From contig OY987240.1 of the NCBI GenBank assembly GCA_963920705.1, positions 5,317,426 through 5,381,425 on the forward strand: a stretch of 64,000 bases of DNA, read 5' to 3'. Numbering within the stretch: position 1 is the first letter of the stretch; every line of letters begins with the position of its first letter. This document shows positions 6,154 through 64,000 of the stretch, piece after piece. Source of the DNA: Odiellus spinosus (taxonomy: Eukaryota > Arthropoda > Arachnida > Opiliones > Phalangiidae). The notes beneath the pieces are model-generated. The model searched no databases. It saw only the letters and a list, made by a program, of their open reading frames with translations, and was not told the DNA's origin. A program made the position numbers and the translations under genes.

Positions 6154-6248
6154 TTCTAAAACGCCCGTTATATCTTACAATTTCTCGAAAGTTCTAATTT
6201 TTAATACTAGACCGTGACTTTATTCGCGACTAGCCTTCTGATAAACGC

Positions 6249-6665: not shown

Positions 6666-6675
6666 ATTATTTAAT

Positions 6676-7028: not shown

Positions 7029-7032
7029 ATTA

Positions 7033-7596: not shown

Positions 7597-7600
7597 TAAT

Positions 7601-7856
7601 TGAATCGCGACTAAATTGAGTGTTTCTAAACCGGGTGATAATAACTGCACGAACTGGATAACATAATAAAACTTTATTGTTTGCTAATTAAAATTGAATA
7701 GGTTCATTACGAAATTGCGATACGACTCTCCCGGTATTACGGATAAGGCTAAAAAACTGAAACATGGGCATTTTCTAGATTATAAAAAACTATTTTTTAA
7801 AGTGTACAGCGGCGCAATTATTAATCATAAGTCAATAATATTTATAAGTGTAAACA
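7601..7856 (-). repeat. BEL 2 3' LTR (37-bp shorter)
   Basis: Starts TGTTTACAC and ends GATTCA on the minus strand. Identical to the other LTR apart from the 37 bp missing at about 7743 and at least one substitution. Confidence 0.92.
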
Positions 7857-7924
7857 TTCCGGTGTCCTTAAATTATACAATTTTAAAATTTAAGTATTTA
7901 CAGGATACGTAGGTAATAATAGTG

Positions 7925-10081
7925 CTAGTCTAACGGTAAGAGACAAAGTTTAGTTACTGGACGTTTAAAAATTCGCGTAGCGGTTTTAACAGTTGCTACC
8001 CGAACACATCCGTCTTCTCCAGGATGAACTTCTTGTACGCGAGCAAGTTGCCACTTAGTTGGAGGAAGGTTTTCGTCCTTAATGATAACGAGTTCACCGG
8101 CTTCAAGATTGCGTTGAGTAGATGCCCACTTTGGCCGCTGTTGAAGTCGGGTCAGGTATTCGTTTCTCCATCTTCGCCAGAAATGTTGAAGGAGTTGCTG
8201 TCCTATCTGCCATCGTGATAAGCGACTGACCTTCACATCAGTGAGATCAGGCTCGGGGATAGCAGTTAGCGCATCCCCGATCAAGAAATGACCAGGAGTT
8301 AAGGCCACAAGACTGTCCGGATCCGTAGATAGAGCTGACAGCGGTCGGGAATTTAGGCAGGCTTCGATTTGACACAACAACGTAGTCATTTCTTCATAGG
8401 ATAAGATCGTTAAGCCAACTACTCGTTTGAGATGATATTTAACTGATTTTATTCCCGCCTCCCATAATCCACCAAAGTGAGGCGCGGCAGGCGGATTAAA
8501 ATGCCATTGGATACCTTCATTTGTTGTCCAGCGCGTTATCGTGTTATGATTATTCGGTGTTGCCAAAAACTTGATAAACTCCTTCATTTCTTTGTTGGCG
8601 CCGATGAAATTGGAGCCGCAATCGCTGTATATATCGGAACTCTTTCCCCGTCTGGCGGTAAAACGCTTTAAAGCTGCCAAAAATGCGTCGGTTGTCATAT
8701 CGCTCACGACTTCAAGGTGAACCGCGCGTGTTGTGAAGCAGACAAACAGGGCAATATAAGCTTTAAACGTCTTGCGTCCACGACCCTTAATCATCTTGAC
8801 GGAGAACGGTCCGGCATAATCGATTCCAACCTTTAAAAATGCTCGTGCTGGATTTACCCGAGCAGCTGGTAAATCTGCCATCTGCTGCTTAAGAACGGTT
8901 GCCTTCTGTCTGGTACATGGAACGCATCTACGAATATGAAAAATTGCAGCGTCTCGGATGACAAATATCCAATAGCGGCGTTGAAGCACCGTTGTAAGCA
9001 GCTGAGATCCTGCATGGAGATGGTTCAAGTGTTCATTGGTAATTATCAAGTCCGTTAGCTTGCTCCTTCGTGGCAGGATTACTGGATGCATACGATCAGT
9101 GGTGACCTTGGCACGGCAAATACGTCCCCCGACTCGAAGTAAACCAACAGGATCGATAAATGGCTTTAGTGATAATAGTTTGCTTTTCGCTGGTAATTGC
9201 TTAGATGTACTCAGGCAGAGACTGTCTTCTTGAAAGTTTTGCTGTTGCACAATTCGAATCCAATGTTGCAAAGCTGACTCGACTTCAATCGCGGATAATG
9301 GTCCTATATTTCGTTCTGACTTGGTAATGCGGCAATTTTTGGCGAATCGTTTAATGCAGACTGTGACATGTAAAAGTTTAGATAATGATGAATAAGCGTC
9401 GAGTAGAGTAAGGTCGACTTGTACGTGATGTGATGATATGCCAATGGGACGGGCTTCTATGAGACATTCTTCAGTTTCTATGAGCGTTGCTGTTCTTTCT
9501 TGTAGATTTCGAGACAGCCACCGGGGCCCATGCCACCACAGCTCGTGGTTCCTAAGCTCTGTAGCGGTTATTCCTCTAGAGGCGCAATCAGCGGGGTTTT
9601 CAGCTCCTTTGACATGACGCCATTGTGCAGTGGGTATAGTATCTTGAACTTCTGCTACTCTGTTAGCAATGAATGTCCGCCATCGCTGGGGTGGTGATGT
9701 CATGGAATCAGTCCAACAATAAGTTTCTGGGTTTTGAATCTTCAAGGCGTTCTGGATTAAGTTGACCAGACGGGATAAAAGAACAGCTCCACACAGTTCA
9801 AGCTTTGGCAATGATACTTGTTTCAATGGGGCTACCTTGGTTTTGGCTGCGATTAGGCATGTTCGAATAAGGCCCGCTTGATTCTCTGTTCTTAGGTATA
9901 CGACAGCAGCATAGGCTTTTTCGGACGCATCACAGAAACCTTGGAGACTGATAGCTTTGGCATTTCGTTGCGACATATGCCGGGGAATAGTGAAAGTTTC
10001 GATTTCTGGTAGGTCTAATAAAAGTGATTTCCATTTTTGTACGAGCATTTCTGGCGGTCGATCGTCCCAATCTAATTTCAA
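7925..10081 (-). CDS. BEL 2 RNase H and integrase
   Basis: 718 residues. Starts in the post-RT region; FCDASEKAYAAVVY (about 45) is the RNase H-type block. WTDSM (about 120) is followed at once by PPQRWRTF, so about ten residues usual in the family are missing there. Integrase: HLHAG...CVPCTR zinc site (about 350-390), GIDYAGPF (about 417), YSDCGSNF (about 483), WEAGIKSV (about 539), giving a full D,D,E set. A DUF5641-type tail with FWRRWRNEYL follows. It ends at 7925 just inside the 3' LTR boundary. The frame continues upstream to about 10300 but is interrupted by TGA at 10085-10087, probably a former Trp. Confidence 0.92.
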   Translation of the reverse strand: MKLDWDDRPPEMLVQKWKSLLLDLPEIETFTIPRHMSQRNAKAISLQGFCDASEKAYAAVVYLRTENQAGLIRTCLIAAKTKVAPLKQVSLPKLELCGAVLLSRLVNLIQNALKIQNPETYCWTDSMTSPPQRWRTFIANRVAEVQDTIPTAQWRHVKGAENPADCASRGITATELRNHELWWHGPRWLSRNLQERTATLIETEECLIEARPIGISSHHVQVDLTLLDAYSSLSKLLHVTVCIKRFAKNCRITKSERNIGPLSAIEVESALQHWIRIVQQQNFQEDSLCLSTSKQLPAKSKLLSLKPFIDPVGLLRVGGRICRAKVTTDRMHPVILPRRSKLTDLIITNEHLNHLHAGSQLLTTVLQRRYWIFVIRDAAIFHIRRCVPCTRQKATVLKQQMADLPAARVNPARAFLKVGIDYAGPFSVKMIKGRGRKTFKAYIALFVCFTTRAVHLEVVSDMTTDAFLAALKRFTARRGKSSDIYSDCGSNFIGANKEMKEFIKFLATPNNHNTITRWTTNEGIQWHFNPPAAPHFGGLWEAGIKSVKYHLKRVVGLTILSYEEMTTLLCQIEACLNSRPLSALSTDPDSLVALTPGHFLIGDALTAIPEPDLTDVKVSRLSRWQIGQQLLQHFWRRWRNEYLTRLQQRPKWASTQRNLEAGELVIIKDENLPPTKWQLARVQEVHPGEDGCVRVATVKTATRIFKRPVTKLCLLPLD

Positions 10082-10277
10082 CTTTCATAATTCTTGAAGT
10101 AGAAGTTTCGCTGGAATCGTAAACGGCGAAAGCAGTCCTAACGGATCGAAAATTTTAGCTGTTTCAGAAAGAATTGTACGTTTAGTAATTAGTTCTGGAT
10201 CAGTAGGTAACGTGAAGATATACGAAAAATAATCGGCTGCCGGTGTCCACCGAAGACCCAAGGCTTTTACCGATTCG

Positions 10278-10898
10278 TCATTGTCGAATTGCAGGTAGAG
10301 AGTTCAGCAATGCTGGGTCATTTGAAGCCCACTTTCGTAACTGAAAACCGGCTTCATTGGTTACTTTCAAAAGTTCGTCTTGTAGTTGGAGTGCTTCGTG
10401 TGTTTCATCTACACTAGTCATTAGGTCGTCGATGTAAAAATCCTCTTCTAGAGCTTTTGAGGCCAGATCGTATGTGCCGCGACTGTCCATCGCTAATTGT
10501 TTGAGAACTCGTGCCGCCAAGAATGGGGCAGAAGACGTCCCATACGTGACCGTAAGTAACTGATAGTCACGTAGCTGCTCTGTTTGATTGGATCGCCAAA
10601 CAATTCTTTGGAGATTTGCATCTTGAGGATGGATCAAAATTTGACGATACATTTTAGCAATGTCTGCTGTTACAGCTACTGCGTAGAATCTGAAACGAAG
10701 CAAGAGTACAATCAAGTCGTCCTGAATTTTAGGTCCGACTAGAAGCTGGTCATTTAGTGATGTCCCATTCGATGATTTCGCTGACGCATCAAAGACCACT
10801 CGAACTTTTGTGGTGCTGCTACTTTCCTTGACCACAGCATGATGCGGAAGGTAGAATGCGTTGGCAATTGAACGTTCTTCTTCGGTCACAAGTCTCAT
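10278..10898 (-). CDS. BEL 2 reverse transcriptase core
   Basis: 206 residues in the same frame as the gag frame to its right. It is separated from that frame by one TGA (10932-10934) and a short in-frame spacer. RT blocks: ADIAKMYRQI (about 76) and YIDDLMTS (about 151, the catalytic YxDD form). It ends early because of a frameshift near 10290-10300; the continuing sequence (SETAKIFDPLGLLSPF type) is in the next frame. Broken piece of the polyprotein. Confidence 0.9.
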   Translation of the reverse strand: MRLVTEEERSIANAFYLPHHAVVKESSSTTKVRVVFDASAKSSNGTSLNDQLLVGPKIQDDLIVLLLRFRFYAVAVTADIAKMYRQILIHPQDANLQRIVWRSNQTEQLRDYQLLTVTYGTSSAPFLAARVLKQLAMDSRGTYDLASKALEEDFYIDDLMTSVDETHEALQLQDELLKVTNEAGFQLRKWASNDPALLNSLPAIRQ

Positions 10899-10931
10899 AT
10901 GTCCAAGTTCTAAATATTCATCAATGAACGC

Positions 10932-12983
10932 TCAATATTGTTTATATAGATTGGCGTTGGCTTGAAGTCTTTTTTCGATATACGTAAATCTTCGTTGTGA
11001 CATTTTTCTAGAATCTCCGAGTTGAATGCTATTATTAAACGGGAGACGCACGATGAAACGACCACTGCCGTTGCGACTATAGGTGTTGAGAAAGTTATCT
11101 TCGCATTGTTGTTCACTTGCTGTCAGCGCTCGTTTAGGGCAAATTTCTTCTATTTCCCAGAACTTTGCTAACTGGTCGTCGATCGTAGATGTATGCACGT
11201 TAATTTCTTGATCGAGATTCGTAGACTTCAACGATGCTGTTGGACCACATATTACCCAGCCAAACACGGTGTTGAAACTTCCTGCTGTACCAGGTCTTCC
11301 TATTCGAATACCATCTCGGATGATGCGTAAATATACATCTGCGCCCAATATCATATCGATTGGACCAGGACGCTCTGGACGGTAGAATGTGGCATCCGCT
11401 AATTTTAGATTCTTGATATGAGTCCATGAGTCCGTATTGACTGGAACGTTAGGCAAGTTCTCCGTCACCTTCTTGAGGATTAAGGCATTGACGTATATGG
11501 ATTGACTTCCATCACTTGGTTTGATAATAATATGGACACTTCCTCGAGAGGTACCAACGCCTGTGGCACCTACTCCACCTACCGCAACAATGAGCCGCGT
11601 TCGTTTTAGTTGAAGCTTTCGGGTGCATTGTTCACTGATGAAGCTAGCTTGGGACCCTGAATCCAAGAGCGCTCGTACTGATTGCATGGTGCCGTTTGGT
11701 AATTCGATCTGGATAATTGCTGTTGCCAGAATAACTTGAGAGACTGGACATGATTCTCTTGATACGAGACAGTTAATTGCTGCCGACATCGACTCTTCCC
11801 GTGGTCTGGAATCCTGGTGAAGTAGTGTATTATGTTTTGACTGGCATTTACGACAATTTCCAGATCTGCATTTAGGAACTTGATGATCAGCTCGGAGACA
11901 GTTATAACACAATGATTTTTCCTTGACTAATTTCCATCGTTCATCTACCTTCGCTCGAAGTAGTATCTCACATTGGTACACAGGATGTGCTTCTTTACAG
12001 ATTGAACACAAATCGTTCCTTGTACCATGATGGGTAAGTGTGGTCTTTCGTGGCTGTATTGGAAATCGTGTCTTCTGATTGTTGTGTGATGTTTGCGTTG
12101 CCATTAACGCCCGTGCCCGTTGCTCCAGGAACATTGTTAGTTCTTGGAATGTCGGTCGACCGGTGCCATTTAAGGAGAGTTCCCATTGCCTTCGTGAAGC
12201 AGGGTCGATCTTTTCTTTAACTATGTGCAGCAGAATAGAATCCCACTGGTCAACCGGCTCCTTTAATACCTTTAATGAACGTATACATTCGGTTGTTGTA
12301 TCGATTAAACAGCGGATTGACGCCGCAGATTCCTCCTTGATAACTGGTTGATTAAATAGTCTCTTAAGGTGCGCATCTATAATCTCTCGAGTATTGTTGT
12401 AGCGTTTTAGCAAGATGTTCCAAGCTTCCAAATAGTTTCCATCTGTGACCAATATTGACTGAATTAATAAGGCAGCTTCACCTCGCAGCGAGGACTTCAA
12501 GTATTGCAACTTTTGGGCCCCTGAGAGTGAAGAGTTATGAACCATGGCCGTAAATAGATCATGGAAACTAAACCACTCGATAAAGTTTCCATTGAATGTA
12601 GGTAACTCCGCCTTTGGCAACTTAATGTCCGCTGCTGTCTGAGCCGTTGAAGCTTGAGGAATGGTTACTGGGCATTGGCTCAAAAAGTCAAAGAAAAAGA
12701 TGTTAATACTTTCGGCTCGTCCTATGAGAAGATTAAAATCGGCTTCATGGGTGTCGAAGTCAGCAGCGGAACTTCCGATTACAATCGCCTCTTGTAAAGT
12801 TTCCAACTCGTTTAGTAGTTTTTCTGCCTTCTCTTGATACTTCTTGATAGCGGTGTTCTGAAGTGGCTGCGTAGAATGTCCGATGACAATGTTCTCGAAT
12901 CTTGTCAGTTGACCCTTAATGGCGCGTCGTTTATTGAGTAAGACATCCATGATAAGATAACCTTGATTCGCTTGCACATACAC
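10932..12983 (-). CDS. BEL 2 Gag and protease
   Basis: 683 residues. N-terminal coiled region, then the DUF1759-type gag block (ELPTFNGNFIEWFSFHDLF, about 125-145). Zinc knuckles follow: CSICKEAHPVYQC (about 325), CYNCLRADHQVPKC (about 356) and a third C..C. Next is a DUF1758 protease with ALLDSGSQASFI (about 434), where Asp-Ser-Gly is intact. Ends at TGA 10932-10934 just before RT. The start Met is the first after the primer site; another in-frame Met lies near residue 12. Confidence 0.92.
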   Translation of the reverse strand: MYVQANQGYLIMDVLLNKRRAIKGQLTRFENIVIGHSTQPLQNTAIKKYQEKAEKLLNELETLQEAIVIGSSAADFDTHEADFNLLIGRAESINIFFFDFLSQCPVTIPQASTAQTAADIKLPKAELPTFNGNFIEWFSFHDLFTAMVHNSSLSGAQKLQYLKSSLRGEAALLIQSILVTDGNYLEAWNILLKRYNNTREIIDAHLKRLFNQPVIKEESAASIRCLIDTTTECIRSLKVLKEPVDQWDSILLHIVKEKIDPASRRQWELSLNGTGRPTFQELTMFLEQRARALMATQTSHNNQKTRFPIQPRKTTLTHHGTRNDLCSICKEAHPVYQCEILLRAKVDERWKLVKEKSLCYNCLRADHQVPKCRSGNCRKCQSKHNTLLHQDSRPREESMSAAINCLVSRESCPVSQVILATAIIQIELPNGTMQSVRALLDSGSQASFISEQCTRKLQLKRTRLIVAVGGVGATGVGTSRGSVHIIIKPSDGSQSIYVNALILKKVTENLPNVPVNTDSWTHIKNLKLADATFYRPERPGPIDMILGADVYLRIIRDGIRIGRPGTAGSFNTVFGWVICGPTASLKSTNLDQEINVHTSTIDDQLAKFWEIEEICPKRALTASEQQCEDNFLNTYSRNGSGRFIVRLPFNNSIQLGDSRKMSQRRFTYIEKRLQANANLYKQY

Positions 12984-19939: not shown

Positions 19940-21370
19940 TTAAGAATATAGTCCGATCATTGATGCCAGTTCGTGAGTCTTAATTCTACCGAGGGGTTTG
20001 GTCAGTAGTTCTGCAACCATGATTTCTGTTGGACAATATTGAAAAATCATGTCATTTCGCAAATCTTTTACAAAATGATGTTTGGTATCAATGTGTTTCG
20101 TACGCAAGGTTACACTTTCACTATCAATCATCTTTAAACAACTTTGGTTGTCTTCATAGATTGTAGTCGTTACTTTCTCGTGCTTTAAATCTTGCAGTAT
20201 TTGCTTCAACCACAGTGCTTCTCGGCAAGTTTCCGCCAGAGCAATGTATTCGGCCTCTGTGGAAGAATGTGCTACAATTGTTTGTTTTCTGCTGGCCCAG
20301 CTTATGGTTGCACCATAGTATTGGAAAACAAAACCAGAGTTCGATTTCCTATCCTTTAAATCACCCGCCCAGTCGGCGTCGGCATACCCAATGAGGGTGG
20401 TAATCTGATTATCTTCGTTTCCAAGTTTCAACTTAAGGAATTGAGTGTATTTGAAATATCGCATCAGTCTTTTAACAGCGGTCCAATCTTTTTGGGATGG
20501 TTCTGTTATTTTTCGACTTAAGATTGAAACAATTACGGCGATGTCAGGGCGTGTGCATGTTGCAATGTATAGCAAACATCCTATGGCTTGGCGATAAACG
20601 TCCTTTACACTTATGTCCATTAGTTCGGTTTGCGAGGCGTTTTTCGTGTCCTTTATATACCAAATGTCCATGGGCGCCTTTGCTGGCTTTGCCTCCGCCA
20701 TACCAAAACGTTTCAAAACGGTTTCAATATATATAGCTTGATGTATGCTAAATATTTTATTACTGTCGCGTTGTATTTCAATACCTAAGTAGAATTTTAA
20801 GTCTCCGAGGTTTACTATGTCAAAATGCTGTGCTAAAAATTCGAAAATTTCATTGACTCTGTCATCATTTGGTGCAATGGTCAGTAAGTCATCTACGTAG
20901 ATGAAAACGTAGCACCAGTCATTTCTGATTCCTTTTGAATATAAGCATTTATCAGCCACTCCTCGCGACCAACCATCAACTATGAGAACGTCGTTTAATG
21001 TCTCATTCCAATTACGTGCAGACTGCTTTAGACTATAAATGCTTCGATGTAGTTTGCATACTAGTTTATTGGTATCCGTGGTCGTGAAGCCAGGAGGTTG
21101 TTTCATATACAATTCTTCTTCTAAATTGCTATTTAAGAAAGCAGTTTTTATGTCGAAGTGTTTTACCTTCATCTTCTTGTGTCCAGCAAGCGCCAACAAA
21201 GTTCGAAACGTTGATTGTCGTCCGACAGGTGCGAATACAGCATCGTATTCAGTTCCAAATTTTTGGGAGTAACCTAAAGCTACTAGCCTTGCTTTGTATC
21301 GAATAACTTCCCCTTTTGAGTCTAATTTAGTTTTAAAAACCCACTTACACCCTATGGGCTTTTTTGCCAT
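19940..21370 (-). CDS. Copia RT and RNase H
   Basis: 476 residues, overlapping the upstream frame by 26 bases in a different frame. Starts in the RVT_2-type RT (KPIGCKWVFKTK), has FDIKTAFLNS (about 72) and YVDDLLTI (about 155), then RNase H with ADADWAGD (about 327), STEAEYIAL (about 372) and EDNQSC (about 405). The C-terminal HIDTKHHFVKD is typical of Copia. All catalytic residues appear kept. The natural protein begins upstream; the listed Met is produced by the shift. Confidence 0.95.
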   Translation of the reverse strand: MAKKPIGCKWVFKTKLDSKGEVIRYKARLVALGYSQKFGTEYDAVFAPVGRQSTFRTLLALAGHKKMKVKHFDIKTAFLNSNLEEELYMKQPPGFTTTDTNKLVCKLHRSIYSLKQSARNWNETLNDVLIVDGWSRGVADKCLYSKGIRNDWCYVFIYVDDLLTIAPNDDRVNEIFEFLAQHFDIVNLGDLKFYLGIEIQRDSNKIFSIHQAIYIETVLKRFGMAEAKPAKAPMDIWYIKDTKNASQTELMDISVKDVYRQAIGCLLYIATCTRPDIAVIVSILSRKITEPSQKDWTAVKRLMRYFKYTQFLKLKLGNEDNQITTLIGYADADWAGDLKDRKSNSGFVFQYYGATISWASRKQTIVAHSSTEAEYIALAETCREALWLKQILQDLKHEKVTTTIYEDNQSCLKMIDSESVTLRTKHIDTKHHFVKDLRNDMIFQYCPTEIMVAELLTKPLGRIKTHELASMIGLYS

Positions 21371-23900
21371 CAGGTAACTCTGTTAGAGTCCAAGTGTTCA
21401 TTTCCTTGAGTGATTTTAATTCTTCAGTCATCGCGTCTTTCCGCGCGCTTTGTTGAGGGCTTGCTAAAGCCTCTTCTATGTTACTTGGATCTGTGTAAGG
21501 AGTGTTTTCCTTTGCTAGCATTACTTCAATTAGTCTCTTAGGAGCCTGTCCTTTACTTGATCGTGTGGAGCGTCTTACGCCGTCCACATTGGTATTCGTC
21601 ACGTCATTTTCTTCCGCTTCACCTACCACTAAGTCGCCGGTAATTTCTTCCAATTCAGAAGCTTCGCTTTCATTTACCAAGGTTACGTCTTCCGTGTTAG
21701 TGGAATCTTCTGGTACCATAGATGTTACGTTTTCTTTTGAATCATGAACGACGCAGTTCTCTTCTATAAACCTTACGTCTCTGCTTATAGTCACAGCATT
21801 CGTTGTTGTGTCTAAAAGTCTATTAGCTTTGGAACCGTCTTCATATCCGACGAAGATTAATTTCTTTGCCTTTAGGTCTAGTTTTCTGCGTCTTTCATCT
21901 GGCACGTGAGCATACGCGAGACATCCGAAGACACGAATATGCTTTAAGTCAGGTTTGGTGCCATACCACAGTTCAAAAGGTGTTTTTTCGATTGCTCTGC
22001 TCGGTAATCTATTTTGTAGGTACGTAGCTGTAGTTACAGCCTCGCCCCAGTAGCAGTTGGGTAGTTTTGCATCCTTTAACATGCTTCGGGCCATTTCTAT
22101 GAGCGACCTTTTCTTTCTTTCCGCCACCCCGTTTTGCTGCGGAGTATAAGGAGCTGTTAACTCCCATTCAATCCCTTCATTGCGAAGAAAGTCTTTGAGT
22201 GCTTTATTTACATACTCTCCCCCTCTATCTGAACGACAGCTTTTGGGTTTTTGCTTATATTTCGTTTCACAGAGTCTGACAAAAGTCTTAATGTTTTCTG
22301 TGACTTCACTTTTATGCTTGAGTAGTGCAATTGTCGTATATCGACTGTGATCATCGATCAGCGTGAGAATATATCTTTTCCCACCTGGCGTCATGGTTTG
22401 CATTGGACCACATACATCCGTGTGGATTAAATTTAAAATTGTTTTTGATCTAGTAGTAGATGTTGGGAAAGGTAATCGTGCCATTTTGGTCTCAATGCAG
22501 GTTTCGCAAACCTTCACAGTATCACATTTTGTGATCTTCATTCCTTTTCCAAGCTCTGAATTCTGTAGTACTTTAATAGCGTCAGGGTGTCTATGCCCCA
22601 TTCGTTTATGCCAGACATGAATGCAAGTGTTTGCAACTTCATTCGGTATTAAGCTTGCGTCACTTCGGACATTCAACCTAAAGAGATCATCTTGACATGA
22701 TGCTGTAGCCACAATACTCTTCTTCTGATTATATATTGTACATCCAGTCATGTTGAACTCAACTAGCAAACCTTGTTTAACTAATTTCTGAACAGACAAC
22801 AAACTTCCCTTTAGTTTCGGCACAAACAAAACATCTTTCACGTCAACTTGCACTAAGTCATGTTTATCAACTAAACAGCTTAATGTTCCATTACACTTGC
22901 CAGCAACTAAAAGAGTATTACCATCTGCGGTAAAGACTTTATCAACAAAAGATTCATCTAAGTATTTAAAAAAACTTTTGTCATGTGTCATATGACACGT
23001 TGCCCCAGAGTCTATAAACCAGCAATCTTCAAATTCTCTGGTTGAAATCTTAAATGCTGTAAAGGTAGGATTATTGCTCGTTTGTGCCTTTTCCTGAGTT
23101 TGCGAAGTTTGCCATTGTTTGGCTATTGTTGCGTTATCTTTTCCGCCATAATAGCCTTTCCTTTTCTTGGCTTTATAAATGAAGCAATGTTTCTTCATGT
23201 GACCTTCTTTGTTACATTCATAACATTTAACCTTTTTTTGTGGTTGCCTTGCATTCCCAATTTTACTGCTAATTCTTTCGCCATACGTTTGTAAAACTGT
23301 CTGTGTTTCATTTCGCGAATGAGCTTTACCATTTGATTCTTCTCTACGTTGATATTCGTCTAATAGTTTCCCTTTCACCAACTCTAGTGTTAGGTCGGTC
23401 TCGTCTCTCGTTTCTAATGCTATAATTAAGGTTTCATAACTTCCCGGAAGACTGCATAATAATAATGCAACAATCAAGTTTTCTTTCAAGTGTTCTCCTA
23501 AACCTCTTAAACGGTCTACTATATCTAGCATTGATTCGAGATGTGTTTCCATATCGCCTGATTCAGGTAATTGACTCCTACACAGTCTTTTTAATAGGAA
23601 TACTTTATTGCACAACGTACTTTTTTGATGATACTGTTGAAGAGCATCCCAGACGTCAGAAGCTGTCGGTTTATCCCGTATGTGCATTAGTTGCGAATCT
23701 TCTACTTGCAAGCCAATTGTTGCTCTCGCTTTACCGTCTTGTTTGTTCCAAGTGGTAGTCAAAGGTTCTGGCGCAGGTTCATCTATAACATGCCATAAGT
23801 CCTCTTTTATCAACTGCATTTCCATCTTGAATTTCCATGTTTGATAATTTGAGCCATTCAGCTTAGCAAACTGTACTTTCATTGTTGTAGAAGCCATCAT
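21345..23900 (-). CDS. Copia Gag, protease and integrase
   Basis: 851 residues from a Met about 110 bases inside the primer site. Order: Copia gag (about 1-200, LNGSNYQTWKFKMEM near 13), zinc knuckle CYECNKEGHMKKHC (about 226), protease DSGATCHM (about 296), GAG-pre-integrase HKRMGHRH (about 437), integrase HTDVCGPM (about 491), DRGGEYV (about 556) and a Glu in AERKKRSLIEMARS (about 590). An acidic linker and the first RT residues follow. It stops at the shift in the A run at 21360-21365. Confidence 0.95.
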   Translation of the reverse strand: MMASTTMKVQFAKLNGSNYQTWKFKMEMQLIKEDLWHVIDEPAPEPLTTTWNKQDGKARATIGLQVEDSQLMHIRDKPTASDVWDALQQYHQKSTLCNKVFLLKRLCRSQLPESGDMETHLESMLDIVDRLRGLGEHLKENLIVALLLCSLPGSYETLIIALETRDETDLTLELVKGKLLDEYQRREESNGKAHSRNETQTVLQTYGERISSKIGNARQPQKKVKCYECNKEGHMKKHCFIYKAKKRKGYYGGKDNATIAKQWQTSQTQEKAQTSNNPTFTAFKISTREFEDCWFIDSGATCHMTHDKSFFKYLDESFVDKVFTADGNTLLVAGKCNGTLSCLVDKHDLVQVDVKDVLFVPKLKGSLLSVQKLVKQGLLVEFNMTGCTIYNQKKSIVATASCQDDLFRLNVRSDASLIPNEVANTCIHVWHKRMGHRHPDAIKVLQNSELGKGMKITKCDTVKVCETCIETKMARLPFPTSTTRSKTILNLIHTDVCGPMQTMTPGGKRYILTLIDDHSRYTTIALLKHKSEVTENIKTFVRLCETKYKQKPKSCRSDRGGEYVNKALKDFLRNEGIEWELTAPYTPQQNGVAERKKRSLIEMARSMLKDAKLPNCYWGEAVTTATYLQNRLPSRAIEKTPFELWYGTKPDLKHIRVFGCLAYAHVPDERRRKLDLKAKKLIFVGYEDGSKANRLLDTTTNAVTISRDVRFIEENCVVHDSKENVTSMVPEDSTNTEDVTLVNESEASELEEITGDLVVGEAEENDVTNTNVDGVRRSTRSSKGQAPKRLIEVMLAKENTPYTDPSNIEEALASPQQSARKDAMTEELKSLKEMNTWTLTELPDGKKAHRV

Positions 23901-26579: not shown

Positions 26580-26750
26580 TCCGGTATGTAGCCATAAGCG
26601 CAGTTGCCAAAAGAGCAGTTTCCGTTTGCGCACTCCCATAAGAGCGGTTTCTCAAAAGCGCAGTTTTTCCAAAAGAGCAGTTTCCCAAAAGCGCGGTTGC
26701 CAAAAGAGCAGTTCTCATTTGCGCATTTCCAAAAGGGTTTTTTCGTATAA
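26580..26750. repeat. Minisatellite, about 15-bp degenerate unit
   Basis: Roughly ten variants of ccaaaagagcagtttc or ccaaaagcgcagttt. It ends immediately before the 149-bp satellite. Confidence 0.75.
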
Positions 26751-26759
26751 ACCCATTTT

Positions 26760-29700
26760 CTTATAATTGCGGGCTCAGTTTTTGGACGTCTAATGCTAAA
26801 AATTTACAAAAATATTTTAGGTAATGTTAAATAGCATAGGTAAGGTTAGGTTAGATTACGTTAGTGTAGGTTAGGCTTTTAATCTGTCATTCATATACAC
26901 TCATTTTCTTATAATTGCGGGCTCAGTTTTTGGACGTCTAATGCTAAAAATTTACAAAAATATTTTAGGTAAGTTTAAATAGCATAGGTAAGGTTAGGTT
27001 AGATTACGGTAGTGTAGGTCAGGCTATTTAATCTGTCATTCGTATAAACTAATTTTTTTATAATTGCGGGCTCAGTTTTTGGACGTCTAATGCTGAAAAT
27101 TTACAAAAATATTTTAGGTAAGGTTAAATAGCATAGGTAAGGTTAGGTTAGATTACGGTGGTGTAGGTTAGGCTATTTAATCTGTCATTCGTATAAACTC
27201 ATTTTCTTATAATTGCGGGATCAGTTTTTGGACGTCTAATGCTAAAAATTTACAAAAATATTTTAGGTAAGGTTAAATAGCATAGGTAAGGTTAGGTTAC
27301 GGTAGTGTAGGTCAAGCTCTAATCTGTCATTCGTATAAACTCATTTTTTTATAATTGCGGGCTCAGTTTTTGGACGTCTAATGCTGAAAATTTACAAAAA
27401 TATTTTAGGTAAGGTTATTAAATAGCATAGGTAAGGTTAGGTTAGATTACGGTAGTGTAGGTTAGGCTATTTAATCGGTCATTCGTATAAACTCATTTTC
27501 TTATAATTGCGGGCTCAGTTTTTGGACGTCTAATGCTGAAAATTTACAAAAATATTTTAGGTAAGGTTAAATAGCATAGGTAAGGTTAGGTTAGATTACG
27601 TTAGTGTAGGTTAGGCTTTTAATCTGTCATTCATATACACTCATTTTCTTATAATTGCGGGCTCAGTTTTTGGACGTCTAATGCTAAAAATTTACAAAAA
27701 TATTTTAGGTAAGGTTAAATAGCATAGGTAAGGTTAGGTTACATTACGGTAGTGTAGGTCAAGCTCTTTAATCTGTCATTCGTATAAACTCATTTTTTTA
27801 TTATTGCGGGCTCAGTTTTTGGACGTCTAATGCTGAAAATTTACAAAAATATTTTAGGTAAGGTTATTAAATAGCATAGGTAATGTTAGGTTAGATTACG
27901 GTAGTGTAGGTCAGGCTATTTAATCTGTCATTCGTATAAACTCATTTTTTTATAATTGCGGGCTCAGTTTTTGGACGTCTAATGCTGAAAATTTACAAAA
28001 ATATTTTAGATAAGGTTAAATAGCATAGGCAAGGTTAGGTTAGATTACGGTAGTGTAGGTTAGGCTATTTAATCTGTCATTCGTATAAACTCATTTTCTT
28101 ATAATTGCGGGCTTAGTTTTTGGACGTGTAATGCTAAAAATTTACAAAAATATTTTAGGTAAGGTTAATAGCATAGGTAAGGTTTGGTTAGATTACGGTA
28201 GTGTAGGTCAAGCTCTTTAATCTGTAATTCGTATAAACTCATTTTTTTATAATTGCGGGCTCAGTTTTTGGACGTCTAATGCTAAAAATTTACAAAAATA
28301 TTTTAGGTAAGGTTAAATAGTATAGGTAATGTTAGGTTAGATTACGGTAGTGTAGGTCAGGCTATTTAATCTGTCATTCGTATAAACTCATTTTCTTATA
28401 ATTGCGGGCTCAGTTTTTGGACGTCTAATGCTAAAAATTTACAAAAATATTTTAGGTAAGTTTAAATAGCATAGGTAAGGTTAGGTTAGATTACGGTAGT
28501 GTAGGTCAGGCTATTTAATCTGTCATTCGTATAAACTAATTTTTTTATAATTGCGGGCTCAGTTTTTGGACGTCTAATGCTGAAAATTTACAAAAATATT
28601 TTAGGTAAGGTTAAATAGTATAGGTAAGGTTAGGTTAGATTACGGTGGTGTAGGTTAGGCTATTTAATCTGTCATTCGTATAAACTCATTTTCTTATAAT
28701 TGCGGGCTCAGTTTTTGGACGTCTAATGCTGAAAATTTACAAAAATATTTTAGGTAAGGTTAAATAGCATAGGTAAGGTTAGGTTAGATTACGTTAGTGT
28801 AGGTTAGGCTTTTAATCTGTCATTCATATACACTCATTTTCTTATAATTGCGGGCTCAGTTTTTGGACGGCTAATGCTAAAAATTTACAAAAATATTTTA
28901 GGTAAGGTTAAATAGCATAGGTAAGGTTAGGTTAGATTACGGTAGTGTAGGTCAAGCTCTTTAATCTGTCATTCGTATAAACTCATTTTTTATTATTGCG
29001 GGCTCAGTTTTTGGACGTCTAATGCTGAAAATTTACAAAAATATTTTAGGTAAGGTTATTAAATAGCATAGGTAAGGTTAGGTTAGATTACGGTAGTGTA
29101 GGTTAGGCTATTTAATCGGTCATTCGTATAAACTCATTTTTTTATAATTGCGGGCTCAGTTTTTGGACGTCTAATGCTGAAAATTTACAAAAATATTTTA
29201 GGTAAGGTTATTAAATAGCATAGGTAAGGTTAGGTTAGATTACGGTAGTGTAGGTTAGGCTATTTAATCGGTCTTTCGTATAAACTCATTTTCTTATAAT
29301 TGCGGGCTCAGTTTTTGGACGTCTAATGCTGAAAATTTACAAAAATTTTTTAGGTAAGGTTATAAAATAGCATAGGTAAGGTTAGGTTAGATTACGGTAG
29401 TGTAGGTTAGGCTATTTAATCGGTCATTCGTATAAACTCATTTTTTTATAATTGCGGGCTCAGTTTTTGGACGTCTAATGCTGAAAATTTACAAAAATAT
29501 TTTAGGTAAGGTTATTAAATAGCATAGGTAAGGTTAGGTTAGATTACGGTAGTGTAGGTTAGGCTATTTAATCGGTCATTCGTATAAACTCATTTTCTTA
29601 TAATTGCGGGCTCAGTTTTTGGACGTCTAATGCTGAAAATTTTCAAAAATATTTTAGGTAAGGTTAAATAGCATAGGTAATGTTAGGTTAGATTACGGTA

Positions 29701-30053
29701 GTGTAGGTCAGGCTATTTAATCTGTCATTCGTATAAACTCATTTTTTTATAATTGCGGGCTCAGTTTTTGGACGTCTAATGCTGAAAATTTACAAAAATA
29801 TTTTAGATAAGGTTAAATAGCATAGGTAAGGTTAGGTTAGATTACGGTAGTGTAGGTTAGGCTATTTAATCTGTCATTCGTATAAACTCATTTTCTTATA
29901 ATTGCGGGCTTAGTTTTTGGACGTGTAATGCTAAAAATTTACAAAAATATTTTAGGTAAGGTTAAATAGCATAGGTAATGTTAGGTTAGATTACGGTAGT
30001 GTAGGTCAGGCTATTTAATCTGTCATTCGTATAAACTCATTTTCTTATAATTG
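26760..30053. repeat. 149-bp satellite array, about 22 units, with TTAGG-like motifs
   Basis: The anchor gcgggctcag recurs at 26769, 26917, 27066, 27215, 27357, 27509, 27657, 27806, 27959, 28107, 28255, 28404, 28553, 28702, 28850, 28998, 29150, 29302, 29454, 29606, 29755 and 29904. Spacing is 142-153 bp. Each unit carries ggtaaggttaggttag and most carry gtaggttaggct. Variants (gtgtaatg, ggttattaaatag, catatacac) mark blocks repeated at longer distances. No coding. Confidence 0.96.
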
Positions 30054-30845
30054 CTAATAATGGACTATTAGAAACTAAAAATTAGCTAGATGTGAATTTA
30101 CTAAGCCTTAATGCTAAAAAAATCAATTTATTTAACTTTCTCACTTACTAAACGTGGAGAAACCAATATTGATAATTTAAAATTACGTACTAACGCGAGT
30201 TGCGTGACTAATATTACTCCATGTAATTGTGAAAAAATCCAAAAGGAAAACTCGGTTAAATACGTGGGTTTGCTTGTTGATAAACATTTGAAATGGAGAG
30301 ATCATATCGCGTATCTCTCGAAAAAACTCCGATCACAAATATTTAGTTTAGGCCAATGTTATAATATTTTGGATGGGAAAACGTACAAAACCCTTTATTT
30401 TAGTTTAATCCAATCTTACATAAGCTATGGTATCTCATGCTGGGGCAGTGCCCAAAATAATATTATCAGTATTATAGAAAGGCTACAAAATAGGGCAATA
30501 AAAAAAATGTTTAAAACGTCCTTTGTTATACCCAACTAATCTTATATACGAAGAATTTAAAGTATTACCCCTACAGAAACTTTACCATAAAAACAACAAA
30601 TAAGCAAACTGCTTTTTATTGATAATCCAAGTCAACCACGTTATAAAACTCGCTATAGAGATGAACTTAATATAATTATTCCGAAAGTTTTCGAAACTAA
30701 GACCCAAAGAAATTTTGAAACTCTAAGTATGAAATTATCCCTTTATTTGAAACGAGTAACAAACCCAAAAAAATTTAAATTGCAATTAAATTTATATCTA
30801 CAAACTATGATTGGCTTGGATTAATAAATAAATAGTAATAAATAC
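30054..30845 (+). pseudogene. Truncated LINE 3' end (RT C-terminal region)
   Basis: A 142-residue frame (30111-30539) carries the region after RT of Jockey/CR1-like non-LTR elements: SVKYVGLLVDKHLKWRDHI, then YGISCWGSA and LQNRAIKKM. After a stop near 30540 the coding signal continues in another frame (FETLSMKLSLYLKRV) to a stop near 30822. A 3' tail of taataaataaatag follows. The upstream element is absent and the break is the satellite border at 30054. Nonfunctional. Confidence 0.8.
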
Positions 30846-53535: not shown

Positions 53536-53715
53536 AAGCACTTTCCAGAATTTTCTAGACATTTTAAGCGCTTTCCAGAATTTTCTAGACATTTTAAGCG
53601 CTTTCCAGAATTTTCTAGACATTTTAAGCGCTTTCCACAATTTTCTAGACATTTTAAGCGCTTTCCAGAATTTTCTAGACATTTTAAGCACTTTCCAGAA
53701 TTTTCTAGACCTCTC
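53536..53715. repeat. 30-bp minisatellite, six units
   Basis: Unit ctttccagaa ttttctagac attttaagcg, exact period 30. On the minus strand it reads as a ten-residue repeat (LENSGKRLKC), because 30 is a multiple of three. I do not call a gene. Confidence 0.93.
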
Positions 53716-56713: not shown

Positions 56714-58308
56714 ATATTTCGATCATTTAATCCAAAAAACTGGTTTCGATCACTTAAAAGTCGATCAATTTGACGATACCGAATTGGTCAGCCGAAGCAT
56801 TTAGTGAAATCATCTGGTATGATAGATTTGAGATATTTTTGCAACAACAAAATAGGAGAGTAGTGCTTTTGAAGATTTAACGCGGTAAATCACAATTTAA
56901 CAAAATTATGGTTGATGACGGAGAAGAGGTTTGCCGATTGCGATCTTAAGCCTTTGTTTACGATTAACTTGCGTTTTAGGCGGGGAATTTGAACGGAGCA
57001 TGTATAATCTGGTTGCATCGGACAGTGGTGAAAAAGGAATTCTTTACTCATGTTACGTTGTTTACGAGTAAATAAACAAGATCCAAGTGGTAACGTTTCT
57101 ATTTGCGAAATTGCATTAAGTAGGTTGTAGCGGGATGTAGGCATTTTATTGTCTTATCATAAATTTGGAGAAAACATGCTAGCCGTTTTGGTCTAATTTG
57201 TTATTATTTATTCTGTCGTTTAAATTCTAAAAATACTGAAATGTATTTGAAAATCTCAAAATACTGAAAACTGCTTTTAAAATTTAAAAATTTCTACTCA
57301 AAATTTGAAAAGGCGAAATTTATAATTTCAAATCTCTTTAAGTTTGAAGATTTTAACCGATCGTGTCCTATGCTTCAGGCGACTGTTCGATGCTAAGCGT
57401 GGAGTGTCCGATGACTAAACACGGCTGTCCAATGAGCTCTACAGGGGCGTCCGAATCTTAACGCAATTTTTCTATAAACCCATCAAATGTACGTTTAACG
57501 GATGCCGTCTTAGATGAGGGGTGTAGGAACGATTTTGAGATGGGGGTAGGGGCGAAGTTGGGGTGTGCAAAAAAGGGGACTAGGTCCTAAAAACTATTGT
57601 TTCAAGTATATTTTAAGGGAATATAAATGTAAGAATAAAGTCGTGTATCTTATAAATATAAATTAAACATATACCGATAATCCAATATTAACACCATCTA
57701 ATAACAATTGTTAAAAAATATTTAATTTGTAAATAATATAGCTATAAATCCTCAAATGGAAATTTACCTCAAGTGAAATCTGTTTGCTTTTCCCCCATAA
57801 AAATACTATTCTACTATACCAATTTAATCATGAATAACGCTTGTAAACTAACAGGAGCTAACTTGCTTACAAACTTACGTTTTAATAACAGCTATATTAG
57901 CGTCCTCATGTGCAGTTTCCCATTTGCGCATTTTCCTAATTCGACCGCACTTTGGCGGTTTTTTTATTCAGTTCAATGAAACTCGAAACATTTCTTAAAT
58001 ATATCCAATGGAATTAGAACAAATTAAAAAAGATTTTTTTCTTTGTTAGCGAATCATCTTGAGAGACTTATAATCATTAAATGGTTACTAAATCAGTACT
58101 ATCCCCAAATATTTTGTAGAATATCCATCAATTTGTAAAGTTTAGAAGATAAAAAATATTCTTAAATTATTGAAAAATAACTTTATAAAGCGAATTGCCG
58201 ATTTACATTTATATTTTTATGTTAATAAATATACTCGGCGCGCTTTTCACCTCGATGGCAACTTCTCCTTGGTCGTTGCACAAACATTGTGGATCTGTGT
58301 ATCAAGGT

Positions 58309-58346
<38 letters not shown>

Positions 58347-59105
58347 TAGACCTATGACCACCGACCCCCTGGCCCTTTAAATAGTTAAAGTGTTCCATGA
58401 GGACCATGAGTCTACACACAGACAAAACTCACAATCACAAAGACTAATAAATTTGCTCTCAGTGACTCGTACCTACCGGTACAAATTTTGTTGTACCAAA
58501 AATTCCAAACAAACTTCCAAATATTCAAGAATCAAAAAACGTTTTGAAAAAATTATAGAATTTTCTTAGTGGTCCACTAACCCCCTCCGATTTAATTTTT
58601 AAAGTGGTCATTTGCCCTCGGGCACGCCTTATTTCCCACGCTGCCTGTATGACGTAATTTCCACTGGGTCATTTTCCTCAGGTTTGGGACAGGAGTAGAC
58701 TCTTTAATTTATATATGGTCATGGATAAAATGCAACATCTTGGGTCAATCTTGAATTGATATTATCATTATAATAGAAGCGCATTATTGTATACATGGCC
58801 ACACGCACAACTTAATTTATACGCAGTCATTTTTGGAAATACTTGGCGCTGGCTTCGCCGGAAGCGCCATCTTAATTTATTTGTAGGCCCTAACCTAACC
58901 TGTAAACCTGGCGTAACACAAAATTCCCATTAAAATAATGAGTGGTTTCCAAACAGTAACCCGATGTCAAACAAAATTAAAATATAAATCCGTGAAAGTA
59001 AACTATGTAGTTCTCATTTCAGAGTAAATTTATAAATAAATGTTTTTTGCTGTAATTCATATTATTTTCTTTTAGTTTAAAAAACATTGTGTCCACGGTA
59101 CTGTG
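56714..59105. other. No gene recognised; poly-T run
   Basis: Contains T31 at 58312-58342. The 84-residue minus frame 56890-57144 is protein-like in composition but unassigned. Confidence 0.45.
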
Positions 59106-59185
59106 ATAAAATGAAATTTGAAAACGAGACGGATACTTCGTGGAATATTTTTATTATTTAGTTTAAATCTTTAACGTTTTAAAAT

Positions 59186-59220
59186 CCTGCGAGCTTTCGG
59201 GCCGTGACCCCTTTTCAAGC
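59186..59220 (-). ncRNA. Hammerhead-like core, left arm (speculative)
   Basis: Minus strand: gcttgaaa, a ggg...ccc stem, then cgaaagctcgc. Layout is as in Penelope hammerhead motifs, but CUUGAAA replaces the CUGAUGA core, so activity is doubtful. Confidence 0.3.
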
Positions 59221-59225
59221 AATCT

Positions 59226-59640
59226 TTAATCTACAATGAATCTAAATTTTAATTCTACATAACGTTTCCGCCAGTGGACAACGATGTGGTTTTTAACCAA
59301 TTTTTTGTTTCCACTGTAACACGTATGTAATTTTTTATATGAGTTATCCCCAATTTTTATACAAAGAGTCCCTGGTTCTAAATTTAGTTTCCCTAGTTTT
59401 TTAATATACAAACTTTCTTTAAATAGTCTTTTATAAAAAATATTTTCTGTGCATACCGATCTATAATCATTCCAATTAATTTTATGATCCGGGTTTTTTT
59501 CTAAGTGGTTAGCTATAGCTTTAGTAGTATCCTTTTGTTTAACATAGTGTTATGTTCCATTAATCGCTTTTTAAAAAATCTTTGAGTGTGACATATATAT
59601 TTTTTATTTCAGTTACAGGGGATTTCATAAAGAAAGTTTT
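59226..59640 (-). pseudogene. Penelope-like GIY-YIG endonuclease C-terminus
   Basis: Read leftwards: TQRFFKKRLMEHN (near 59580), a frame change, then AIANHLEKNPDHKINWNDY (near 59480-59520). NIFYKRLFKESLYIKKLGK follows (near 59400-59450), then LNLEPGT and a tail ending at 59226. The order of RL.EH, A.A.H and the KES.YI Glu fits the GIY-YIG endonuclease of Penelope-like retroelements. The RT is absent. At least one frameshift near 59535. Family call from remembered motif order only. Confidence 0.7.
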
Positions 59641-59830
59641 TATATTAAAAAAACTAGGGAAATTAAATTTAGAACCACGGACTGTTTGTATAAAAAATTG
59701 GGGAAAACTCATATAAAAAAGTACATATGTGTTACAGTGAAAACAAAAAATTGGTTAAAAACAATATCGTTGTCCCCTGGTGGAAACATTATGTAGAATT
59801 AAAATTTAGAATCATTATAGATTAAAGATT

Positions 59831-59865
59831 GCTTGAAAAGGGGTCACGGCCCGAAAGCTCGCAGG
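59831..59865 (+). ncRNA. Hammerhead-like core, right arm (speculative)
   Basis: Identical to the left-arm motif, on the plus strand. Confidence 0.3.
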
Positions 59866-59946
59866 ATTTTAAAATGTTAAAGATTTTAAACTAAATAATA
59901 AAAATATTCCACGAAGTATCCGCCTCGTTTTCAAATTTCATTTTAT

Positions 59947-61214
59947 ATGATTTGTTTAAAAAAAGGAGTGGAGAGGTTCCGCCATGGTGGGGGAAACTGC
60001 GGAAGTGTAAAACTGCTCAAATGGAAAACGGTGCAAAGCAAATGCGCTTATGGGAACCGTATCATATAAAGCTAGTTTGTAGTTTTAGTTTAGGTTTTAC
60101 TAAATATATTTGCCACCTGAGAATTATGCTAAATCTATCACGAGTCCGGAATATTGTACATAAAAATGTGGGGGAAAGCTTTCAACATTCTCTTATGACA
60201 GTAAAATATAGTAATGTTGCTTAAAATGTTTATTTTAATGTTATTATGAAGAGCTCAATTTCAGCATTAGGTTGCTACTAAAAATAATTTAGAGAACAAC
60301 CTAAAATTATTGGAGGGTTGAAGTTTGATATTGGAGGTTCCAATGCCCCCTCCATTTGTTCCTACGCCACTTTTTAGAGCAACTCTTATGGTGTCTTTTA
60401 TGAAGTTTCATACATGCATTTTGTAGCTTAAGAACTGTACTTTTTGTTGGTAGTTATCTCCGATGTCAGACTAAATAAAACTTAGCTATTTTTACGTTTT
60501 TCGGAACTTCTTATTGCCAATACCTCTTAATAATATTGATTTGATTATCTGAAGACAATGTTTTCCGCAGTTAGCGCATAGTAGTCATGCTGGTGGTTAT
60601 TCCTTCGCCTTTCTGAGAGCGAGAAACTTAGATCTTCATGAACCAGAATGAACACACAGTGCATTTAAAATAAATTAGTTAAAAGATCGGACAAAATAAG
60701 AGACAAGCAACTCTCAACGGAAATGACATCTATTCATGAAACTAATGAAGGGGGAAAAAGTTGCCTATTGTAGGCGGTGGAATTACCCCCAAAAATGGCC
60801 GCCATCTTGAAAATTTTAGTTTTTTGCTATTTTCGGAAAAACCGTTAGATTTACAAATATTAAATGAAAAGCAATTTTATTGAACGTGTAATTACACATT
60901 TAATAAAACAAACAACATCCAAATATTCAAATTAAATCAAATATTACACCCAAAAACCCGCTCCATCGAATTACGATTTTAGTTAATTTCCCCGAATTTT
61001 ACGTAAACATTTTTGTTATGATGAAAGTTCAGTCAGCAGCCTTTTCAAGGAAAAGCCATAAAACTATAAAGTTTATTGTAGCCGTTCTATAAAATATATG
61101 GACTTCAACCGGGGTTTTCTAGCCCCATGGTCAAGCTTCGTATTATAGGAGAGATTTTATTGTTCCTGATTATGAACAGTGAAAAAAGGTTCGTCTTAGA
61201 AAAGCCTTACACCT
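59947..61214. other. No gene recognised
   Basis: AT-rich; the 90-residue frame at 59952-60224 shows no domain. The pseudogene that follows may begin within the last 100 bases. Confidence 0.45.
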
Positions 61215-62940
61215 TTGTCGACTGTGTTAGTCTACAGGTGGACTAACGAATGGAAGGGGGTTTACTGACAGTTCTTTGGCCAAATTGGTTACTTCAATGC
61301 CCTTTTGCTCTGTTATCATTAATGATGTAGAAACCTTTGCTCACGTTTACGGTGTAAGTAGCGAGCAACACGTAGATCTAAGTGACTATAGGCGTGCACA
61401 TTTTGGTCAAGATTTAGAGAAATTCTTCGACTGGTTCAACTACAATCCCCCATTTAGCGCAGAAATTGGTGAAAATAAGAGTAGGCGATGAAAATAATAA
61501 CTGCGAAAGAGCTCAAGAAATAGGGGATACGTTAATGACCAACACTGTAGGGGAGAAACTAAGAGATGTTAAATTTTATCGTAATGACAAGGTGAAAACG
61601 CTCGCGCTTGTCAACAAAAAGATCATTCGTATTGACAATGAAGACATTCCAATAAATCCAATTAAATTATTCAATCGCATAGTCTGCACAAACAAGACAT
61701 CTGACGAGCTGGAACATTGTTTCCAGTAAGAACTGGCTACGTATCCGCCATCTTTTTTCGTTGATTGTCAACTGCGTAAAGGAACCAAATCAAATCTTCT
61801 GGATAAAGATGAGAGACCAATGGATTCCTTACCAAAAGCAGACAAGATGGCTTTCGTACTTGACGGAGGATTTTTACTACACAAAGTTGTTTGGCAGTTG
61901 TTTACGGAGAAATTTTCGTACAGTATGAAATATTCATACCCTTTCATTATGGTTCAGACGTAACTATTGTATTTGATGGATAAGACGAGTCAGTTCTTTC
62001 AACCAAAGCTTATGAACATATTCGAAGAACCAAATCTTCCGCAGATGTGGTTGTACAAGAAAACCTTGTCATTTCGCAAAGCATATCCGAGTTTCTAGGA
62101 AACACGAACAACAAAAACAGTTCATATTGAAGCTATTCAAGCATTTAAAGAAAGCCTTCATTGTAGTCGTTCAAGCACTATACGACGCGGATACCGTTAT
62201 AGTATCAACCGCGCTCTCTCTCAAATCACCAAATAATTCGGTTTGCGTAATTGCTGAAGATACAGATAAAGCACTGTTACTGGTCTATCATGCGACTGAA
62301 AAAAACACCTACATGATGAGTCCTGGAAAGTTGGCCAAGTCGGATAAAGTTACTGATGTCTCTGAACTTAAAAATAAACTAGGAGAGACAGCGGCTACTT
62401 TGTAATTCGTTCATGCTTTATCTTTGTGTGATAGTACTTCAGCCTTCAACAAGAAAGGGAAGCCAACGTTTTTGAAACAATATTATAAAAGTTGTGGCTC
62501 GAATGTTGCTAACTACGTCACGAAATCACGTGGCGTTAAGGTTATACAGGGTATTTTTGAGAGGGCTCGGGAGAGGCCCAATTTTGAGAGTTGACACGGA
62601 TATAGAAAAAATAAGCTTAAGAAATGGTCGGTGCTCACGAACGCTATAAGCTTTACGAGCTATTAATGTAGCTGAGGACGTCGACGGCAACATACACTAA
62701 GTTCGTCCTCTTTTATGATAGCAACTATTCAAGGGAAACACTAAATTAACTCAGGACTCTTTTTTATACAGTGTCGCAAATGCAAATAAGGAAGATCTTT
62801 CGAACGCTGGTGAAAATATTGACCTGAAACTGTATGGAGCCACATCCAAAACCAAAAGCCTAAACAGGCAAAGGTATCTTCTATACAACAAAATTGTTTC
62901 TAAACAAATGCTGAAAATCAATTTTGAATTGGCAACCCTT
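61215..62940 (+). pseudogene. Pseudogene of a PIN/FEN-like, multicopy insect protein family (main part)
   Basis: A protein I remember as an uncharacterised multicopy family in insects. Pieces in order: GGLTN (61215), SSEQHVDLSDYRRAH and LEKFFDWFNYNPPF (61276 frame), then EIGDTLMTN and NPIKLFNRIVC (61466 frame). ELATYPPSFFVD, RKGTKSNLLDKD and FVLDGGFLLHKVVW follow the stop at 61727-61729. Then VTIVFDG before TAA 61981-61983, YDADTVIVSTALSL, VIAEDTDKALLLVYHATE (62127 frame) and HALSLCDSTSAFNKKGK after TAA 62403-62405. Spaced acidic motifs (LDGG, FDG, DADT, EDTDK) resemble PIN/FEN-type nucleases. The N-terminus of the family is absent. Confidence 0.8.
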
Positions 62941-63561
62941 CCGAATCCAGGTAAAGAAAGCCACGGTGAAGAAAGACAAAAATTTATTTTATTGAATTAG
63001 TATCTGCGTACATAATTAGTTTAAATATTTGGTTGTCCGAACCGGATGTTGTGGCTAACTCCTTGAAAGAATTTGTGAATGTCTTTTCGTCCAGCGATAA
63101 AATCATCACACAGATTCTTTAAACGCGTTTGCAGTTTTACGTATATGCGCCTTTTCCTCTTAGGTATTTGAATTCCACGTGCGTCTTTCATGATCCTGGC
63201 GTGAACGCGTGACTCTTCTTTCTGGAGATTTTCAATTAATTTCCAAATAGAAGGATGATCCTGACCCACCAAATTGCGAAACCCATTGTTCCATCCTTCG
63301 CAAACGTTGTTGGTACGCGACAAGTTTTTTATGGTTACTTCATGACAATTCCAAGTTTCAAGTTGAAAGTTGTATGTACCTTTCTGGCTCGTTATAATTT
63401 TGGTCTCCATACTTATTTAATCTATTATCGATTGATTGTAATGTCTGTATTGTAATGTCAGTATTATATATGCTGTCTTTTCCCGTTTTTTAAATAATGG
63501 TGTTTTTTATGTTGGCTTTTTTTTCCGGTTTTTTGTCTTTTTTTCCGTGGCTTTTTTTACC
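62941..63561. mobile_element. Small MULE (Mutator-like) derivative inserted in the pseudogene
   Basis: Terminal inverted repeats: ggtaaagaaagccacgg at 62950 and its reverse complement near 63545-63561. ggcaacc stands at both borders (62931 and 63562), compatible with an 8-10-bp duplication. The left border is uncertain by about 10 bp. Contains only the C-terminal part of the transposase frame. Confidence 0.75.
63021..63410 (-). pseudogene. MULE/FLYWCH-type transposase, C-terminal fragment
   Basis: 129 residues: RTNNVCEGWNNGFRNLVG (about 32-49), HPSIWKLIENLQKEES (about 52-67), then a basic tail to TAA 63021-63023. This is the C-terminal block of insect Mutator-like transposases often linked to FLYWCH domains. 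The catalytic domain is missing, so it cannot act. Opposite in strand to the pseudogene that surrounds it. Confidence 0.8.
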
Positions 63562-63900
63562 GGCAACCTCCCTTCCACCAACTAAAGACGCATTGGAACA
63601 TCACATATATCGTAGGTATTATCAAAACCAGGAAAAGCTCTATAGAAAGTTGAATGAGGACTTATTGGGGTAGAAATTATGCAATAGTAGTTTGGTGCTG
63701 GTATATTGTAATCAGGCTCCCGCTCCAGAAAGCATACTTAAGCTAATATTTTGTAAACGCAATTCCACTAACTGTACAAAAGTATGCCCATGTAGAAAAT
63801 ACGGCAAGATATGCCCTGCTATGTGCGGAGAGTGAATGGAATATATTGCCTTAACTCTTGCCGCGAAGTTAATGATACTGATGACGAAGATATTGACTAA
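63562..63900 (+). pseudogene. PIN/FEN-like family pseudogene, C-terminal part
   Basis: Continues after the MULE: SLPPTKDALEHHIYRRYYQ (about 63570-63630), APAPESILKLIFC (about 63717), then a Cys-rich tail CPCRKYGKICPAMCGEC. A one-base change after CGE shifts the frame for the last acidic residues, which end at TAA 63898-63900. The Cys-rich tail after the LPPT region is what I recall as the usual end of this family. Sequence to 64000 is AT-rich with no feature seen. Confidence 0.78.
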
Positions 63901-64000
63901 TGTCAGCTAATATATAAATTTAAAAAGTGAAAAAAAAAAAAAAAATAATCATTGCTAACCCATTTTCTGAAACAAAATTAAATATTTTTGTCTTAATTTG

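Follow-up and report, generated by a model that had tools for sequence, protein, structure and literature searches.

The 64,000-nucleotide stretch of the Odiellus spinosus genome analyzed here (the window; assembly GCA_963920705.1, contig OY987240.1, positions 5,317,426 to 5,381,425 of the forward strand) carries, close to its right-hand end, a broken coding sequence that the initial annotation, made from the letters alone, described as the relic of a multicopy gene family with nuclease-like motifs. The motif series it listed is indeed found in order on the plus strand: LDGG (61859-61870), FDG (61972-61980), DADT (62184-62195), EDTD (62256-62267), and CDSTSAF (62427-62447), followed by a Cys-rich tail (63674-63835), an acidic end, and a stop codon at 63898-63900. 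As argued below, this stretch is probably what remains of an AcademX-like DNA transposon, a copy that is dead and has lost internal sequence and whose open relatives are found elsewhere in the same genome.

Structure of the window copy

The coding sequence is split into pieces that are read, in order, in frames 1, 2, 1, 0, 1, 2, 2, and 1 (Table 1). Its status as a relic is borne out by these frame shifts, by in-frame stops at 61727-61729, 61981-61983, 62403-62405, 63671-63673, and 63833-63835, and, decisively, by the piecewise match to an open relative. A loosened version of the five-motif chain, with motifs and limits picked post hoc, ends at a single place on the plus strand of the window and at none on the minus strand; none of 60 dinucleotide shuffles (plus strand only) contained it. 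The longest fully open relic frame (129 amino acids [aa]) was equalled in 30 of 1000 shuffles and the longest frame allowing one stop (192 aa) in 5 of 1000; the minus-strand counterparts of this measure are 131 and 161 aa.

Table 1. Features of the transposon copy in the window
Feature	Position	Strand	Remarks
Left terminal inverted repeat	60652..60959	+	first bases mutated relative to the family's TAGTACAGTGCA
Element sequence common to other copies	61099..61225	+	in copy L018, precedes the zinc-finger front
Deletion joint	61226..61230	.	zinc-finger front and putative transposase core gone; parts kept in L018 and L019
Relic piece 1	61231..61479	+	starts STGGLTNGRG, which in intact relatives directly follows the D-x3-EQ block
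Relic piece 2	61481..61897	+	one stop; ends with LDGGFLLHKVVWQ, the first acidic motif
Relic piece 3	61900..62121	+	HYGSDVTIVFDG, the second acidic motif; one stop; STKAYEHIRRTK
Relic piece 4	62115..62591	+	DADT, EDTD, one stop, CDSTSAF
Relic piece 5	62722..62942	+	LKLYGATSK...LATLP
Insert of 626 bases	62943..63568	.	33-nt imperfect inverted ends (62950-62982 and 63529-63561)
Relic continued past the insert	63569..63670	+	SLPPTKDALEHHIYRRYYQ
Cys-rich tail and acidic end	63674..63900	+	motif reading; match to relatives' proteins

Inverted repeats enclose the relic, one at 60652-60959 and the other, as placed by comparison of the fetched copies, at window-equivalent positions 64033-64313, so that the window copy measures ~3.66 kb, insert included. 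The two repeats align over 253 nt with 84.2% identity (E value of 2e-68; the right repeat lies outside the window, in locus L037). The terminus of the window family is TAGTACAGTGCA, and the left end of the window copy itself is too mutated to show a target duplication. The window copy is an internal-deletion derivative: a stretch that is partly kept by the copies L018 and L019 is missing from it between 61225 and 61231. L018 keeps a front part (CVICED...VVHKSCRLRY) without counterpart in the window copy, and L019 additionally keeps GFFTIRRTNENWSGNWTDMVTEQNVMRAMM immediately ahead of STGGL; a Pfam search with these front pieces returned DUF2175 at 0.054 and nothing else.

The relic was interrupted by a later transposon at 62943-63568, which carries a minus-strand fragment (63021-63416) and which, together with that fragment, we take to be Mutator-like. 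The insert-free site is spanned in 23 of the 38 fetched loci (34 places, as some loci overlap); because such empty sites exist in other copies, an 8-base duplication with 7 of 8 bases equal could be recognized in the flanks ACCCTTCC and TCCCTTCC. In a simple flank-repeat test, 344 of 5000 random pairs did as well. Since the insert is absent from the same site in other copies, the window copy must have been in place before the insertion. Another match of the insert alone is located at C14:19200082-19200562.

A run of 16 A residues at 63930-63945, one of the four A/T runs of at least 12 in the window, begins 29 bases past the relic's stop. An origin as a retrocopy with this run as its tail was considered and rejected because the run sits inside the element, past the stop and ahead of the right inverted repeat. 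For the first seven starts of its 3' flank, the longest match within 58000-61240 was 8 nt long and occurred at 58071 and 59464, neither of which is in the element.

Related copies in the genome

The whole genome containing the window (443 Mb, 286 contigs) yielded at least 124 DNA matches to the relic, a lower bound obtained with 40 of 1190 candidates scored. These correspond to at least 36 places after merging of matches within 6 kb, one of which (on C14) matches the insert only. Some places are near-duplicates of one another (e.g., C9/C200 and C180/C280), and therefore there are fewer independent insertions than places. A search with the L019 block, in which all 69 candidates were scored, returned 44 matches, including five places with a 1464-aa open frame, all at the same 50% identity. 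The near-identical 5.7-kb open copies include C2:4786371-4792094 (L056) and C14:155758-161481 (L057), with more on C2, C3, and C6; the two that were read from end to end share 99.965% identity across 5725 bases. The inverted repeats measure 120 nt in L056, 152 nt in L057, and 316 nt in L058, a closer relative in which a single stop divides a 299-aa frame from a 1094-aa frame.

The 1094-aa frame of L058 aligns piecewise with the window at 61210-62483 (E value of 5.8e-103, 44-56% identity) and again at 62722-62961 and 63569-63655. The 1464-aa protein of L056 matches 61213-62477 (E value of 2.9e-66), 62722-62961, and the Cys-rich tail (63572-63829). These piecewise matches are taken here as proof that the relic and these transposon proteins share common descent.

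Among the copies of the window family, exact 3- or 4-base target duplications (ATA, ATG, AGA, TTTG, and CTT) flank five of the eight sites at which both ends could be read, the exceptions being L019, L033, and L039/L040. The eight sites derive from 14 listed end pairs: L018, L021, L026, and L055 were regarded as spurious and left out, since one or both of their ends carried 3 mismatches and were judged not to belong to an inverted repeat, and duplicated places (L039 with L040, L042 with L046) were counted once each. L039/L040 was kept, though one of its ends has 3 mismatches, and was scored as a miss. In the intact family, whose terminus is TAGCCCAGTAAA, the ends of all five places were read, and each place has a 3-base duplication. 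Duplications are thus found at 10 of the 13 sites of both families together, a number reached in none of 20,000 shuffles (mean, 1.3). The near identity of the open copies, together with the 3-base duplications that flank all five, shows that this family has moved recently. The relic itself is a decayed, internally deleted transposon fossil, and relatives of it have been copied recently in this genome. Of the points raised in the initial annotation, the multicopy nature is confirmed and a mobile origin is supported, the latter by copy number, defined ends, and target duplications.

Of the 30 fetched loci containing the 3' end of the gene, 12 have it in both orientations (L024, L025, L027, L030, L031, L033 to L036, L040, L042, and L043). 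Several of these loci are fold-back derivatives built from transposon ends.

The encoded protein and its predicted nuclease

The 1464-aa protein starts with two Cys-x2-Cys stretches (CVICG...CRKDY and CLFCG...HSKCYVKF), which make its front look zinc-finger-like in sequence. Its middle contains the blocks FVFDNAD (at 431), TFDQPL (600), and TDMTIEQ (842), seen as FVFDNAD, TFDQPL, and TDM-x-IEQ in both relatives' proteins; we infer that this part is a DDD/E transposase core. Pfam recognized no transposase in this protein and gave only sub-threshold matches to DUF6589 (0.028) and Aim19 (0.13). Farther downstream are acidic residues at positions 1074, 1114, 1184/1186, and 1207/1208/1210, the GCDTTSA motif at 1264, and nine cysteines from 1413 to 1444. 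The majority of these acidic positions are conserved or even invariant among the aligned members that cover them, and their motifs stand in FEN-like order.

In a Foldseek search with a low-confidence structural model, the top five rows were Exo1 (two), T5 D15 (two), and ExoIX, and 49 of the 50 VIA rows were of the flap or 5' nuclease type, which supports, without proving, a FEN/XPG-like fold of this region in the model. Pfam profiles, run on one member, gave no significant nuclease match (best, 5_3_exonuc_N with an E value of 0.0065 and 16.6 bits where the cut-off is 34.3; NYN_YacP followed at 0.0099). The proposed kinship with FEN-type nucleases is therefore favored by fold rows and motif order, with weak support from profiles. 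The protein resembles the FEN/XPG/Exo1 5' nucleases in acidic motif order and predicted fold but differs from them in that its sequence matches fall below the cut-offs and that the domain forms part of a transposon protein that also has a CDTTSA block and a Cys-rich tail. The relic pieces themselves had no significant match in Pfam, PHROGs, NCBIfam, PADLOC, PDB sequences, or Rfam, and a single-sequence AlphaFold2 model of 62115-62591 was uninformative (pLDDT of 33).

Outside this genome, none of the 15 pattern matches from a search for related loci was confirmed. Degenerate patterns hit 0, 2, 6, and 0 stretches in viral contigs, all eight of which were read and judged to be due to chance, and 0 and 1 in genome contigs, the single one lying in a bacterial frame without the other motifs. 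A tblastn search against plasmids and phages gave no match, and no paper was recognized in the literature search as naming this protein family.

Affiliation of the element

The nuclease known from Academ transposons is of the XPG type, and Academ proteins are also known to carry a Cys cluster. In published accounts, Academ is treated as a DDD/E superfamily (PMC9587614) with the sister lineages AcademX, which encodes a nuclease and generates 3- or 4-bp duplications, and AcademH, which has a helicase and 9- or 10-bp duplications (PMC10045372). The element described here shares with AcademX the (predicted) nuclease and the 3-4-bp target duplications and differs in both respects from AcademH. Its fuller copies (~5.3-5.7 kb) are close to the mean length of 5565 bp given for bivalve Academ elements (PMC10294476); the window copy departs from AcademX in lacking the front and the core. 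The name AcademX is suggested by nuclease and duplication length, that is, by printed features rather than by Academ sequences. The idea of an undescribed system was not upheld, since this combination is already in print for the AcademX lineage (PMC10045372); what is found here is a new family of a known kind of element, a DNA transposon with a predicted nuclease. In intact relatives, a single protein of ~1464 residues is encoded between terminal inverted repeats; it combines the two Cys-x2-Cys fingers at its front with a putative DDD/E transposase core, a predicted FEN/XPG-like nuclease domain, and the Cys-rich tail. The transposase would cut and join the element ends, leaving 3-4-bp duplications, and the nuclease may trim flaps or gaps arising at either step.

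Placement in another or unnamed superfamily of nuclease-bearing DNA transposons is unlikely. It would agree with the ends, duplications, and nuclease, which are shown or supported, with an AcademX link that rests on features instead of Academ sequences, and with the lack of a Pfam-recognized transposase; the Cys cluster, known in Academ proteins too, speaks for AcademX. So does the printed pair of nuclease and 3-4-bp duplications (PMC10045372). An extended form of this alternative is likewise rather doubtful. It posits a distinct non-AcademX lineage that is active in this genome or was so until recently, whose cut-and-paste movement depends on a flap nuclease joined to the transposase as an integral component, and whose gene has lent its 3' end as an arm to many fold-backs.

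That the element is AcademX-like and its "nuclease" a look-alike with another role seems quite improbable: the low confidence of the fold model and the sub-threshold profile matches would allow it, whereas the conservation of most acidic residues in the aligned members covering them and the 49 of 50 flap-nuclease rows argue against it. A host or defense gene family, multicopy for other reasons, is hardly credible, as nothing beyond the initial suggestion of a defense-related origin favors it, while inverted ends with target duplications, near-identical copies, and a PADLOC search of a 291-residue composite (0 of 5027 models matched) all oppose it. An AcademX-like transposon is thus the preferred reading.

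The surroundings are rich in transposons, as had been proposed, with other mobile elements in the window. The minus strand at 861-12983 and 19940-23900 carries BEL/Pao-type frames (Peptidase_A17, RVT_1, rve, DUF1759, and DUF5641), probably two elements, and a Copia element (RVT_2, rve, and copia-type gag). An inverted repeat at 59106-59946 (197-nt arms at 93%, outer arms of 79 nt) includes a 107-aa frame without a Pfam match, which presumably resembles a Penelope-like GIY-YIG end; four frames upstream of the relic had no Pfam matches. There are also a tandem array of ~22 copies of a 149-base unit (26742-30054; 94% matches) and a 30-base tandem repeat (53536-53710; 5.8 copies, 97% matches) that is open on the minus strand.

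By itself, the window relic is ordinary, and its value is that it leads to nearly identical open copies in the same genome. With these copies, a protein family unrecognized by Pfam gains a name, and it becomes testable why a cut-and-paste element joins a predicted flap-type nuclease to its transposase.
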